Positions 314 through 53,890 of a stretch of 64,000 nucleotides of DNA are shown here, piece after piece (position 1 is the stretch's first letter; each line of letters opens with the position of its first letter). This DNA is from an uncultured Alteromonadales bacterium (GTDB lineage: Bacteria > Pseudomonadota > Gammaproteobacteria > Pseudomonadales > Cellvibrionaceae). The notes beneath the pieces were generated by a model. That model was not told the DNA's origin. It saw only the letters and a list, made by a program, of their open reading frames with translations, and made no database searches. The stretch lies in the NCBI GenBank assembly GCA_937864365.1, contig CALMJT010000039.1, positions 1 to 64,000 of the forward strand, in the 5' to 3' direction. The translations under genes were made by a program, and so were the position numbers.

Positions 314-363
314 AGAAACTCTGATTAACCCCGAGTTTCTAGCGACACAAGGATGTGTTCCTA
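314..363 (+). repeat. Truncated copy (C) of the 151-bp dispersed element
   Basis: About 50 bp match the left end of the intact copy at 53724-53874. The first hairpin (GAAACTCT / AGTTTC arms) and the second (GCGACACA AGGA TGTGT) are recognisable. Similarity stops after the second hairpin. An ATG at 355 lies inside this repeat and is therefore unlikely to be the start of the following kinase gene. Confidence 0.75.
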
Positions 364-2780: not shown

Positions 2781-2920
2781 GGAAATTCTAACTAACTTAG
2801 AGCTTTCAGCGATATACTGATGTGTAGCCAATTTCAAGAACTTCAAGTCATTGAAAATTAGAAAATAAATTCTCATATTCTCTACTCTAATTAAATCATA
2901 GAAGACTTAATCAACCTCCT
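2781..2920 (+). repeat. Decayed copy (D) of the 151-bp dispersed element
   Basis: Same orientation as the intact copy at 53724. It aligns over nearly the full length with many substitutions: the left end GGAAA.TCT.A.TAAC, the central CAATTTCAAGAACT block, and the right end with TTAAATCAT and CTTAATCA. The hairpin arms are largely destroyed, so it looks like an old copy. It starts 30 bp after the response-regulator stop. Confidence 0.65.
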
Positions 2921-7986: not shown

Positions 7987-8056
7987 TGAGTTAGGTTTAA
8001 TTGCGTTTGTACCGATATAGACGCAGCGATTCTATAACAGATGGCTGTGATTAGCT

Positions 8057-8197
8057 TAAAGTTCCTGCGTCACACGAATTTGTCTTCAGCCTTAAGCATT
8101 GAAGGTTATTGAAAGTCATTGAGATCGTGACTCAGTTGGATGGTGTATTTTCAATTTCACTCTTCGATTTTATTGCGGAAGAGTTAATTGCTGGTTC
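8057..8197 (+). repeat. Possible highly diverged copy (E) of the 151-bp element
   Basis: The right third still resembles the intact copies (TTTTCAATTTC, then GAGTTAAT and terminal GGTTCC), and the left part has a GTTCCTGCGTCACAC block in the place of the second hairpin. The match is weak in the middle, so this could be chance in A+T-rich DNA. Confidence 0.4.
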
Positions 8198-8325
8198 CAA
8201 CAGTTTTCAATTCTGATGTTAACAAATAGATTGTCAAACTAGAGTTAGTTTTATCGGCGGGTTTTGTGATGTTTATTTGAGGTTTTTTGAAAATAAATAA
8301 AAGCAGTTTAAGGCGGGAAAAACAC

Positions 8326-16899: not shown

Positions 16900-17661
16900 A
16901 TGTCAGATCAAACTATCGAAACGAGCGCTGATCACGTTCCTGCCAGTGATGTGTCTGCATCTACTGAGCATGGTCCTGAGAAGGTTCGACGTCAAACGGC
17001 GGTTTATGTCTATGAGGCGCCGTTACGACTTTGGCACTGGGTAACGGTGCTTTGCATTATCGTGTTGAGCGTCACCGGTTATTTTATTGGTGCGCCATTA
17101 CCAACGCAGCCGGGTGAGGCCATCGATAATTATTTGATGGGCTACATTCGCTTTGCGCATTTCGCCGCAGGTTACATTGTGGGCATTGCGTTTTTAGGCC
17201 GAATTTACTGGGCTATTGTGGGTAATCATCACTCTCGCGAACTGTTTTTGGTTCCGATTTTCCGCGCATCTTGGTGGGCGGGTGTGATCCATGAATTGCG
17301 TTGGTATTTTTTCTTAGAGAAGACACCGAAAAAATACATCGGCCATAACCCGTTGGGTCAGGCTGCCATGTTCTTCATGTTTGTACTGGGAATGATCTTT
17401 ATGATCATCACCGGATTTGCATTGTATGGAGAAGGGGCGGGCGCTGGCAGTTGGGCTGATACCGTATTTGGCTGGGTGATTCCGCTCTTTGGTCAAAGCC
17501 AAGATGTTCACACTTGGCATCATTTAGGCATGTGGTTGATTATTGTATTTGTAATGACCCATGTATATGTGGCTGTTCGCGAAGACATTATGTCGCGTCA
17601 ATCGTTGATCTCAACAATGGTTGGTGGCTGGCGAATGTTCAAGGATGATAAGCCCGACTAA
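16900..17661 (+). CDS. hupC: Hydrogenase cytochrome b subunit HupC/HoxZ
   Basis: Di-haem cytochrome b that anchors HupSL and passes electrons to quinone (253 aa from ATG 16900, with GGAG 6 nt upstream; a TTG at 16867 in frame is less likely). Four hydrophobic helices carry the histidines expected for haem ligation: RLWHW near the first, RFAHFAAGY in the second, and DVHTWHHLGMW plus MTHVYVAV towards the end. It has an unusually long, Ser/Thr-rich hydrophilic N-terminus (about 45 residues) before the conserved VYVYEAPLRLWHW. Confidence 0.94.
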   Translation: MSDQTIETSADHVPASDVSASTEHGPEKVRRQTAVYVYEAPLRLWHWVTVLCIIVLSVTGYFIGAPLPTQPGEAIDNYLMGYIRFAHFAAGYIVGIAFLGRIYWAIVGNHHSRELFLVPIFRASWWAGVIHELRWYFFLEKTPKKYIGHNPLGQAAMFFMFVLGMIFMIITGFALYGEGAGAGSWADTVFGWVIPLFGQSQDVHTWHHLGMWLIIVFVMTHVYVAVREDIMSRQSLISTMVGGWRMFKDDKPD

Positions 17662-20816: not shown

Positions 20817-20833
20817 CGCGTAGGCAGCTTTTT

Positions 20834-20984
20834 GGAACCTCTGATTTACTCATCCATGATTTAACCAGAGGACAGAAATTGACAATGCGATTTTTAATTT
20901 CTTCACAATTTCAATCATTTAGTGTTCTTGAAATTGGCGACACATTTTTGTATCGCAAGAAACTCTAGGTTAATCAGAGTTTCC
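20834..20984 (-). repeat. Intact copy (B) of the 151-bp dispersed element, inside the hup operon
   Basis: Exactly 151 bp, inverted relative to copy A at 53724. By eye it differs from A at about 16 positions and has no gaps. Both ends carry the terminal inverted repeat GGAA(A/C)CTCTGATT.AC. Several internal hairpins are retained, although some arms are slightly changed. Runs of T flank both ends, compatible with a short target duplication but not proof. It sits 17 bp after hupH and 29 bp before hupI. Confidence 0.88.
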
Positions 20985-21013
20985 TTTTATTAATTAGGGC
21001 CACAATTAAAGTA

Positions 21014-26197: not shown

Positions 26198-28858
26198 ATG
26201 TGCTCTGAACTTGTCACTTCTCAACGTGCAGAAAAATACGCGCGTATTATCGTCCGTGGGCAAGTTCAGGGTGTTGGTTTTCGGCCATTTGTTTATGGTT
26301 TAGCACAGCAGCTTAATATTCGTGGACGTGTTTTTAATCGCGGTGCCGACGTTATCATTGAGATTGCTTGCGAAAGTAACTCGTTTTCTGATTTTATTGA
26401 TCAGCTTAAAAATAGAGCGCCCAGTCTTTCGAGAATTGATTCGATTTCCATTACTGAAAACCTTACCGGTAGAGATGCTCACCGCATAGCAGATTTGACG
26501 GGTTTTGAGATAGCGGTTAGTGAGTCTTGCGATAATTTATCGTTAAATGTAGCCGCCGATGCAGCGCCGTGTTCTGAGTGTTTAAAAGAATTATTGGATG
26601 CTAATAACCGCCGGTATTTTTACCCATTTATCAACTGTACTCAGTGTGGGCCGCGTTTTACGATCATTAAAAAATTACCCTACGATCGACCTAATACCAC
26701 CATGGCGAGTTTCCAGTTGTGTGAGCTTTGTCATCACGAGTATGTCGATCCTAGTTCTCGACGTTTTCACGCCCAGCCGAACGCTTGTCCGCAATGTGGG
26801 CCTAAATTAGTAACGATTAAAAAAACTGAGGGTTTTGAACGTTTTAAAACTCAAGAATCCATTGCGCGAGCTTTTAATTTATCAAGTGATATCGACAATT
26901 TATCTCAGCTAAAAACGATTGTGAAAAGTATTTTGGCGGGAGAAATTTTGGCTATTAAATCCGTTGGTGGCTTTCATTTAATCTGTGACGCTAATAATCC
27001 CAAAGCCGTTGAAACTTTGAGATTACGAAAAAATCGACCGTCTAAACCCCTGGCCATTATGTGTTTGAACGCTCTGTCGGCACGTTATTGGGTAGATGTT
27101 GACGCTTCGGATGAGCAGTTTTTAGCGGATAAATCTGCACCGATATTGGTTTTGCCGATTAATAATGCCGACCGAAAAACAGCATCTTTATTGGCTCCGG
27201 GCTTAAATCACCTGGGCATTATGCTGCCGCAATCACCGTTACACTGGTTGTTGTTCGCGGCCTATTTGCGTTATTTTCAGGGTTCAGTTGAGGTCGATAA
27301 AAATGCCGACGATTATTATTCCGTTGAAAAACTTCAAGAAACAATCTGTTCGTTAAGTTTGGTCATGACCAGCGCAAACTTGAGCGGTGAGCCTTTAATT
27401 ACGGATAATCTTGAAGCGATTCAAAAATTAGATGCGATTGCCGATATTTTTGTATTGCACAATCGTGATATTCATACGCGTTGTGACGATTCGGTATTCG
27501 TCAAAAGAGATAATCAATTTATTCCGATTCGTCTCGCGAGAGGCTTTTCGCCACTTAAGCTTGATGTACAAAGCTCTCATCTATTTTCAAGTAAAACAAA
27601 AAATACTGAGACTGTGCTTGCTCTTGGCAGTTATTTAAAAAATACCGTAGCTGTTAATCGTGGTAACGAAATTTGTGTATCTCAACACGTGGGCGATCTT
27701 GATCATCCCGATAATTGCAAAGCACTGGTAACGGCCTGCGATCGTTTGTTGGATATTATGCAAATTAAACCTTCTGTTATTGCTTGTGATTTGCACCCCG
27801 AAGGTTTTGGTCGCGCTTACGCCTTAGAATTAGCTCAAAAATATCAAGTACCTGTTGTCGACGTGCCGCATCATGTAGCCCATGTTCACTCCGTGTTTTC
27901 AGAATTTTCTGAAAATAATCCGGTGTTGGGTTTTGCTTTGGATGGTTACGGATTTGGCTGGGATGAAACCTCACGCGGTGGTGAATTACTACTGATCGAT
28001 GGCAATCATTTTTATCCGCAAGCCGAACTTGAGCGTATTGCTCAGCCAGGCGGCGATAAGGCTTCTAAGGAACCTTGGCGAATGACGCTGGCATGGTGTT
28101 ATCAATCTGGTTTAAGTATCGATAAGGCTCATTCGCTGCTTCATAGTTACGATGTTGGTCAGTGCCCGCGACCAAGCGCTAGTGCTGTTGATTTAGTGTG
28201 GAAAATGCTTTCAGCCAATATTAATTGTGCACCGACCACCAGTGCTGGGCGATGGTTCGACGCTGTTGCCGGGTTATTAGGTTTGTGTAGCATCCAATCT
28301 TACGAAGGTGAGGCTGCGATGCTGTTAGAAGCCCGAGCTTTGGATTATTTACGCAGAAATTCTTCTGGTGATGCAAATCTATCTTGCGTGAATAATCAAT
28401 TTAATGAGATTGCTTTAAACGCAATTAAATCGCTAAAAAATAAAAATACTAAGATCAACTCTGGCAACGTAATTTCCTTGAATGATGTTCTAAGTGATTA
28501 TTTAAACGATCTTTTGTCACTTCAAAAATCTAATGATCTTGAAAATTATCGCGATATCACCGCAAAAATCGCGCTCGATTTTCACATTCAATTATCGACG
28601 CGGTTGTTTGAGTCGATTGAAAATACATTAAGTTGTTTGAGTAAGAGCTACTCAAACATAAGTAGGCGAGTTATTTTTAGCGGTGGTTGTGCTCAAAATC
28701 AACTGTTGTATTCGGTGTTAAAACAGCAATTAAATACTATTGATGTCGAATTGGTTTTATCGAATCGTATACCTGTAAATGACGCTGGTATTTCGGTGGG
28801 GCAGTTACACTATGTTCTATCGTTATCGAGTTCTGAACAGGTGGTGAATAATAAGTAA
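26198..28858 (+). CDS. hypF: Carbamoyltransferase HypF
   Basis: Makes the cyanide precursor of the NiFe site by carbamoylating HypE (886 aa). Domains in order: acylphosphatase (IIVRGQVQGVGFRPFVY, about 16-105), two zinc fingers (CSECLKEL...CTQCGP and CELCHHEY...CPQCGP), YrdC-like domain, and the Kae1-like domain with VPHHVAHVHS and FSGGCAQNQ. It is over 100 residues longer than typical (about 750); extra segments lie between the zinc fingers and YrdC and in the C-terminal domain near 725-790. Starts 3 bp after hupR. Confidence 0.95.
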   Translation: MCSELVTSQRAEKYARIIVRGQVQGVGFRPFVYGLAQQLNIRGRVFNRGADVIIEIACESNSFSDFIDQLKNRAPSLSRIDSISITENLTGRDAHRIADLTGFEIAVSESCDNLSLNVAADAAPCSECLKELLDANNRRYFYPFINCTQCGPRFTIIKKLPYDRPNTTMASFQLCELCHHEYVDPSSRRFHAQPNACPQCGPKLVTIKKTEGFERFKTQESIARAFNLSSDIDNLSQLKTIVKSILAGEILAIKSVGGFHLICDANNPKAVETLRLRKNRPSKPLAIMCLNALSARYWVDVDASDEQFLADKSAPILVLPINNADRKTASLLAPGLNHLGIMLPQSPLHWLLFAAYLRYFQGSVEVDKNADDYYSVEKLQETICSLSLVMTSANLSGEPLITDNLEAIQKLDAIADIFVLHNRDIHTRCDDSVFVKRDNQFIPIRLARGFSPLKLDVQSSHLFSSKTKNTETVLALGSYLKNTVAVNRGNEICVSQHVGDLDHPDNCKALVTACDRLLDIMQIKPSVIACDLHPEGFGRAYALELAQKYQVPVVDVPHHVAHVHSVFSEFSENNPVLGFALDGYGFGWDETSRGGELLLIDGNHFYPQAELERIAQPGGDKASKEPWRMTLAWCYQSGLSIDKAHSLLHSYDVGQCPRPSASAVDLVWKMLSANINCAPTTSAGRWFDAVAGLLGLCSIQSYEGEAAMLLEARALDYLRRNSSGDANLSCVNNQFNEIALNAIKSLKNKNTKINSGNVISLNDVLSDYLNDLLSLQKSNDLENYRDITAKIALDFHIQLSTRLFESIENTLSCLSKSYSNISRRVIFSGGCAQNQLLYSVLKQQLNTIDVELVLSNRIPVNDAGISVGQLHYVLSLSSSEQVVNNK

Positions 28859-34471: not shown

Positions 34472-34559
34472 TGGCGGTGGGGTAGGGATTCGAACCCTAG
34501 GACCTGTTACAGTCAACGGTTTTCAAGACCGCCGCTTTCGACCACTCAGCCACCCCACC
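34472..34559 (-). tRNA. tRNA-Ser (anticodon UGA)
   Basis: On the minus strand the acceptor arms GGTGGGG and CCCCACC pair, followed by discriminator G and an encoded CCA (34472-34474). The D-arm starts GGCTGAGTGG, the anticodon loop reads CTTGAAA (anticodon TGA), a long variable arm typical of serine tRNAs follows, and the T-arm contains GGTTCGAATCC. Length 88 with CCA. Confidence 0.97.
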
Positions 34560-53674: not shown

Positions 53675-53723
53675 TAGAGACAACCTGAGCCAACAAATAC
53701 GTATTAAGAAGATCTAATAAATA

Positions 53724-53874
53724 GGAAACTCTGATTAACCTAGAGTTTCTCGCGACACAAGGATGTGTCGCTAATTTCAAGAACTGTAAGTAATTGAAAT
53801 TGTGAAGAAATTGGAAATCACATTTTCAATTTCTGCCCTCTGATTAAATCATGGATGAGTTAATCAGAGGTTCC
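53724..53874 (+). repeat. Reference copy (A) of the 151-bp dispersed element
   Basis: 151 bp with 16-bp terminal inverted repeats (GGAAACTCTGATTAAC at the left, complement of GGAACCTCTGATTAAC at the right). Internal perfect hairpins: GAAACTCT/AGAGTTTC, GCGACACA-AGGA-TGTGTCGC, and CCTCTGATTAA/TTAATCAGAGG, plus weaker TTTCAA/TTGAAA and GAAATTG/CAATTTC pairs. The flanking bases AATA occur on both sides, a possible 4-bp target duplication. No coding capacity. Confidence 0.9.
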
Positions 53875-53890
53875 AATAGTTATATCGAAC

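Follow-up and report, generated by a model that had tools for sequence, protein, structure and literature searches.

A high-copy 151-bp MITE tiled with five hairpins, and its candidate IS5-family partner, in a Cellvibrionaceae genome

The 151-bp repeat at positions 53724 to 53874 of this stretch of DNA raises the question of whether the hairpins it carries serve the host wherever a copy has landed or serve the repeat's own mobility. By "the window" we mean the whole 64-kb stretch analysed. We consider it very probable that the repeat is a non-autonomous MITE moved in trans by a resident IS5-family DDE transposase, and that its stems help amplification rather than a host gene.

A five-hairpin element and its copies in the window

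A reading of the sequence alone had described two gapless 151-bp copies with about 16 differences, 16-bp terminal inverted repeats, and decayed, truncated and doubtful further copies. The features of the window are as follows.

314..363, plus strand: 5' fragment of a MITE copy (44 bp at 93%)
2781..2920, plus strand: decayed MITE copy C (71%), with target duplication GTTA at 2777-2780 and 2921-2924
8040..8198, plus strand: possible very decayed MITE copy (covariance model 21.4 bits, E 2e-5; blastn E 0.025)
20834..20984, minus strand: MITE copy B, 151 bp, 89% identity to A, with target duplication TTTT at 20830-20833 and 20985-20988
53720..53723, no strand: left 4-bp target duplication of copy A, AATA
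53724..53874, plus strand: MITE copy A, 151 bp (blastn and sequence)
53724..53739, plus strand: left terminal inverted repeat of copy A, 16 bp, 15/16 against the right end, matching both resident IS5-family ends
53724..53750, plus strand: hairpin H1, terminal, including the left inverted repeat (folding)
53752..53771, plus strand: hairpin H2, GCGACACA/TGTGTCGC (folding)
53772..53802, plus strand: hairpin H3 (folding)
53806..53834, plus strand: hairpin H4 (folding)
53837..53870, plus strand: hairpin H5, terminal, the right inverted repeat with an internal mirror copy (folding; stand-alone 42-bp relatives)
53859..53874, minus strand: right terminal inverted repeat of copy A, 16 bp, 16/16 against the resident IS5-family ends
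53875..53878, no strand: right 4-bp target duplication of copy A, AATA

As had been described, copies A and B differ at 16 positions with no gaps over all 151. The ends of copy A pair at 15 of 16 positions. Copy C aligned across 143 columns with its duplicated flanks intact, and the truncated copy was recovered as well. The doubtful copy at 8057-8197 is probably a very decayed one: the covariance model gave E 2e-5 in 83 kb, but blastn was marginal over 80 bp. Copy A is short, non-coding and bounded by terminal inverted repeats, as expected of a MITE; the two open reading frames of at least 20 aa that overlap it (44 and 20 aa) each run out of the element. An Rfam scan of the window at the gathering score assigned no family to the MITE copies, and its sole match was a tRNA at 34475-34559.

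Copy B lies 17 bp past a 308-aa open reading frame; 29 bp beyond the copy comes a frame whose rubredoxin match (52.4 bits) falls below the cut-off of 90. The same region contains hypF (26198-28858). The first start listed for a DcuS/DpiB-type sensor kinase frame (355-2064) falls within the 5' MITE fragment, and the true start may lie further inside that frame.

The predicted fold of copy A consists of five successive hairpins that together span nearly the whole element, at element positions 1-27, 29-48, 49-79, 83-111 and 114-147. Its energy was -58 kcal/mol, whereas shuffled sequences averaged -28.9 (z -8.6) and none of 200 was as low; the opposite strand also folds (z -7.4). The sequence-only reading had counted three hairpins rather than five. 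H1 and H5 are each built from a terminal repeat paired with a mirrored internal, partial copy of itself.

Hairpins resembling H5, with completed ends, also stand alone as 42-bp units. An exact pattern found six in the same genome, four with an exact 4-bp duplication, and none in the genome of the same genus (G001). Each may be a minimal mobile unit, or may have arisen when a deletion joined the CTCTGATTAA direct repeats found at element positions 6-15 and 115-124; we infer that such a deletion in a 151-bp copy would yield exactly 42 bp. Further subfamilies exist: one locus (L033) has a stretch of about 70 bp with the same terminal repeat and a different interior, and another (L108) has an unpaired end. 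L033 and L322 also contain internally deleted MITE copies, the one in L033 with an AATA duplication.

Copy number, insertion and the candidate partner

The prediction of many genomic copies held. The 20-bp internal core GTGTCGCCAATTTCAAGAAC, with up to three mismatches, matched 316 times in the 4.72-Mb genome (control 1), a count that may include some copies at contig ends twice; GGAAMCTCTGATTAA, with up to one mismatch, matched 694 times (control 0). We estimate 260-316 copies. All 40 candidates scored by blastn (of 753 at first look) matched at 95-100% identity, and all 150 scored with the covariance model (of 4665 at first look) matched, the lowest at 121.9 bits. Beyond the scored list, 14 extra core matches are not among the copies counted below; several of these are incomplete, through truncation, internal deletion, erosion of an end or a contig boundary, and others are near full length at 81-90% identity. 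Many contigs (e.g., C7, C11, C12, C16, C18, C49 and C58) begin or end 30-55 bases inside the MITE or an IS end, and the family probably accounts for much of the break-up of the assembly into 231 contigs.

Matches to the MITE occurred in two of 77 genomes searched, namely its own and G001, where the best copy was 73% identical. With the covariance model G001 yielded six copies, of which five scored weakly (at most 52.1 bits), and G001 is the only labelled genome of the same genus in the comparison set. Most likely the MITE amplified in this lineage, the lone same-genus genome being seen with six decayed copies. Plasmids and phages gave no blastn match at E 0.001, the exact 20-bp core was absent from viral contigs, and an exact 32-base pattern was absent from a collection of genome contigs. 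Among the best 80 matches listed for the tatD gene beside copy A, the best named relative was that of Sessilibacter corallicola (79%), which makes Sessilibacter, or something close to it, the probable source organism. In that species, tatD and a convergent glycosyltransferase gene are adjacent, and the 8.8-kb tatD locus has no MITE match longer than 11 bp.

Insertion was characterized in 145 near-complete copies, drawn from the loci of the 40 blastn-scored and 150 covariance-scored copies. This set leans toward well-scoring copies, the covariance-scored list came from a structure-aware model, and matches falling short of query positions 5 and 147, duplicate entries, copies whose flank was shorter than 60 bp and nine G001 loci were excluded. 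An exact 4-bp target duplication flanked 111 of the 145, compared with a mean of 23 and a maximum of 35 across 1000 shuffles of the flanks, and an exact 5-bp duplication flanked none. The duplications that the reading proposed looking for are present, including those of copies A, B and C, and copy ends coincide with the terminal repeats. Of the 74 copies at or above 95% identity, 67 retain the duplication, compared with 11 of the 20 below 90%. Among the 111, TATA (41) and TAAA (25) were commonest, the target was mostly Y-TAWA-R, and G followed the duplication in 63. Some copies lie inside or against older copies (L009, L015 and L024). A pair of repeats at C26:16936 and 17990 was considered as a 1-kb autonomous element and proved to be a MITE copy (16936-17086) and a separate short hairpin.

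A full-size element sharing the 16-bp ends, which the reading had suggested searching for, appears in the same genome only as IS ends at contig ends, with the body unassembled and no complete copy seen, and as a complete relative elsewhere in the family. The IS right end GGAACCTCTGATTAACCTAAAAATATTTAG occurs at 12 places, all 12 pattern matches being less than 300 bases from a contig end, and the left end GGAACCTCTGATTAACCTCCGAGATC at four distinct flanks; both ends start with GGAACCTCTGATTAACCT. The right end of the MITE matches both IS ends at 16/16 positions; for the left end of the MITE the figure is 94-95% across 18-19 bp. Right ends are preceded by TATA (3), TAAA (3) and six other tetranucleotides once each, and left ends by TTTA, TATA, TAGA and CTTA. 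At C156:1-297, the right end is accompanied by a transposase C-terminus, and the resident transposase is known from these last 52 residues, which match the DDE_Tnp_1 domain only (23.9 bits, cut-off 23). The complete relative, in another genus of the family (G167), is present in two copies with near-identical ends, GGAACMTCTGATTAACC, between TATA duplications, and its transposase matches both DDE_Tnp_1 (117.7 bits) and DUF772 (74.6 bits). The 4-bp length of the IS duplication comes from paired flanks in G167 only, with TATA on both sides; the MITE duplications are mostly TAWA, not YTAR.

A related transposase was found at E ≤1e-10 in seven of 144 family genomes, including this one; G001 had none at E 1e-10. 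All 676 relatives on plasmids were below 60% identity, and of the 30 listed, 14 were annotated as IS5 family and 16 had no annotated feature. DDE_Tnp_1 matches at C126, C25 and C34 were rejected as partners on the grounds that the fetched loci had no exact GGAANCTCTGATTAA end. At one locus (L099, G000:C60:1-260), a single TATA is all that lies between a MITE copy and the left end of the IS, which indicates that both used the same target. Separately, L043 (= L059) and L067 hold tandem IS right ends, one of them split by another at its own TTTAG; this arrangement suggests that the IS inserted into itself.

The MITE interior matches known stretches of the IS mainly at the repeats and at the mirror copy at 114-124, so the MITE is not a plain internal deletion of the known IS parts. 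The left end of the G167 element weakly resembles H1 (82% over 28 bp, E 0.007), so H1 may have descended from an IS end. Common ends, exact 4-bp duplications, similar targets, high copy number, nesting and a complete related IS5 element are all directly seen; that the resident IS actually moves the MITE is what these sequences lead us to infer.

Constraint on the stems

The sequence-only reading had proposed that paired changes keep the hairpins and would point to selection for structure. We counted these in 144 rows, one of the 145 having been dropped for divergence. Both partners had changed in 52 cells of Watson-Crick stem pairs, compared with 16-31 for slid partners, a mean of 18.8 and a maximum of 38 in 500 re-pairings, and a mean of 18.6 and a maximum of 37 in 1000. 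Of the 52, 36 were Watson-Crick against 26.6 expected from independent letters. The excess lay in the terminal hairpins: 29 cells versus 6.5 in H5 (0/1000 re-pairings as high) and 7 versus 2.2 in H1 (11/1000). It was not significant in H2, the hairpin GCGACACA/TGTGTCGC named by the reading (11 versus 8.1; 195/1000), and H3 (1 versus 1.0) and H4 (4 versus 2.7) were not above controls, nor were H2-H4 pooled (16 versus 11.2; 69/1000). The proposal is partly supported: paired changes exceed controls overall and, by helix, clearly in H5 and H1, but not significantly in the hairpin that it gave as an example. A first set of 32 copies (29 distinct) contained one compensated cell, not above shuffles (69/500 as high).

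On a tree, 25 branches changed both partners, compared with 8-18 for slid partners and a mean of 12.3 and a maximum of 22 in 300 re-pairings; 14 of the 25 gave Watson-Crick pairs. Pair 114-147 kept C-G in 107 of the 144 rows, changed jointly to another Watson-Crick pair in 12 (6 G-C, 6 T-A), and showed a one-sided or mismatched change in the other 25. Single changes in Watson-Crick pairs, counted with the divergent row included, were mostly disruptive: 287 break the pair and 151 leave G-U.

Substitutions present in one or two copies ignored the stems, affecting 139 of 269 available in stems and 34 of 66 in loops (p = 1); transitions alone gave 48/61 and 4/8 (p = 0.10). In contrast, substitutions present in at least five copies were 2.3-fold rarer in stems (37/342) than in loops (28/111, p = 0.0005), a difference whose main caveats are recurrent hotspots, which common substitutions may include, and sampling by a structure-aware model. 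It persisted with the terminal repeats excluded (29/276 versus 23/75, p = 0.00007) and when only H2-H4 were considered (20/198 versus 12/51, p = 0.017). Transitions in at least five copies carried it (29/114 versus 23/37, p = 0.0001), while transversions showed no contrast overall (8/228 versus 5/74, p = 0.32) or in H2-H4 (4/132 versus 0/34).

Folding gave a similar picture. Of the 81 copies (among 145) with at least six substitutions, 73 folded better than under random placement (mean z -1.75), an excess coming mainly from common substitutions. No folding constraint was detected for substitutions in one or two copies (mean z -0.24; 17/29 below 0; p = 0.28) or for singletons (6/12 below 0, p = 0.57). 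Substitutions in up to four copies showed mild constraint (27/39 copies below 0, p = 0.004), making the split between rare and common graded. With rare substitutions ignoring the stems that common ones avoid, it seems that stem constraint, absent from transversions alone, acts mainly during amplification of the elements and not where they are inserted. Selection for structure at insertion sites is not supported.

Weighing the explanations

The hairpins might instead act as host RNA, with copies at gene 3' ends processing or stabilizing mRNA in the manner of Correia/NEMIS or ERIC and being kept folded by selection. Strong predicted folding on both strands and the 73 of 81 well-folded copies would fit this explanation, as would gene context. 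Among the 135 of the 145 copies that had sufficient flank, with genes called by longest open frame only, 34 were between convergent, 11 between divergent and 65 between tandem genes, with 25 unclear. However, the scarcity in divergent promoter regions is also expected from purging of harmful insertions, and the context fits such removal. Copies between tandem genes had no orientation bias (30 along versus 35 against), and the asymmetry between strands that G-U pairing would leave was absent (A>G and C>T 151 versus G>A and T>C 131). The S. corallicola gap between tatD and the glycosyltransferase gene (L235:4800-4826) holds one terminator-like hairpin with a T run (shuffles 0.4), while the surroundings of copy A (53675-53890) gave neither a promoter nor a terminator match; the contrast favors a host role for the hairpins, and the missing match taken by itself speaks against one. 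With no signal from strand, orientation, promoters, terminators or rare substitutions, we judge an RNA function at each site very unlikely.

Two further explanations concern the stems themselves. Compensatory changes could be a mutational by-product, with template switching during replication copying changes between hairpin arms without selection, a mechanism that the abstract of PMC8794818 describes for RNA-gene hairpins. The excess of double-change branches, 14 of 25 of them Watson-Crick, and its concentration in H5 agree with this, and we regard it as a possibility to be taken seriously without favoring it. Across 144 rows, none of the five loops was found inverted, with gapped ones skipped, although correction between arms needs no inverted loop; by itself, template switching leaves the avoidance of stems by common substitutions unexplained. 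Alternatively, what is conserved in the stems could be the sequence itself, with H1 and H5 offering their inner arms as extra transposase-binding sites, the interior holding sites for other proteins, and folding being incidental. Binding sites within stems could yield the same stem-loop contrast without folding, H1 and H5 do each hold a mirrored partial terminal repeat, and the internal hairpins lack significant covariation per helix. Joint changes at pair 114-147 would be unneeded for a fixed site, an objection weakened by the 25 rows with one-sided or mismatched change there. We find this explanation somewhat unlikely.

The preferred explanation, mobilization in trans with stems aiding amplification, would proceed as follows. 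An IS5-family transposase would recognize the GGAACCTCTGATTAAC ends common to IS and MITE and insert the MITE at AT-rich TAWA-type sites, creating the 4-bp duplication. Inserted copies would then decay, their hairpins without visible constraint. The hairpins, the terminal ones above all, most likely aid amplification instead of serving a host gene. They might do so, for example, if the ends fold or pair as single-stranded DNA, or if the mirrored repeats bind additional transposase. DDE transposition is generally thought to act on double-stranded DNA. A stronger version, that hairpins in mobile DNA are required for amplification in a DDE system, with stems preserved in spreading lineages, through matched changes in the case of the terminal ones, but not in inserted copies, and a 42-bp hairpin of two inverted repeats as the minimal unit, is speculative and in our view improbable.

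Stably folding MITEs of 100-200 bp are already familiar, according to passages of PMC2229807 and PMC10969869. Like IS5-family elements, this one has 4-bp AT-rich target duplications and a partner with a DDE_Tnp_1/DUF772 transposase. Unlike IS5 of E. coli, for which a passage of PMC10359306 gives YTAR, its commonest duplications are TATA and TAAA, and its interior is unlike known IS stretches and tiled with hairpins. Passages on Correia/NEMIS of Neisseria describe the same size class (about 100-200 bp), high copy number and stable folding (PMC2229807, PMC10969869), but 24-bp terminal repeats with 5'-TA-3' at the termini (PMC2229807), whereas the present element has 16-bp repeats, duplicates 4 bp and forms five short hairpins in succession. 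ERIC of Enterobacteriaceae and Vibrionaceae likewise reaches high copy number, up to 711 in one genome in the passage of PMC10969869, and differs in its terminal repeats, listed as 7 bp in PMC2229807; by sequence, the comparison with ERIC was the Rfam scan. The Caulobacter CIR, as described in PMC2229807, resembles the MITE in having separate stem-loops in its 5' and 3' sections and no single closing stem. That source gives CIR two arms, without a terminal repeat and with an undetermined duplication, whereas the MITE forms five hairpins, has terminal repeats and duplicates 4 bp. The element was not described in the titles and abstract openings of the literature listed on bacterial, IS5-family and stem-loop MITEs, MITE compensatory changes, Sessilibacter and Cellvibrionaceae transposable elements, or in passages of PMC10969869, PMC2229807, PMC10359306 and PMC12060690.

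Specialists may take an interest in the tiling by five hairpins, the 42-bp units and the contrast between rare and common substitutions. Splitting substitutions in this way is a general means of asking whether folded repeats serve the host or their own mobility. For this organism, the family represents a large burst of MITEs, making up no more than about 1% of the genome if all 316 core matches were full copies, with a visible partner IS, set against a genome of the same genus in which decayed copies alone were found.
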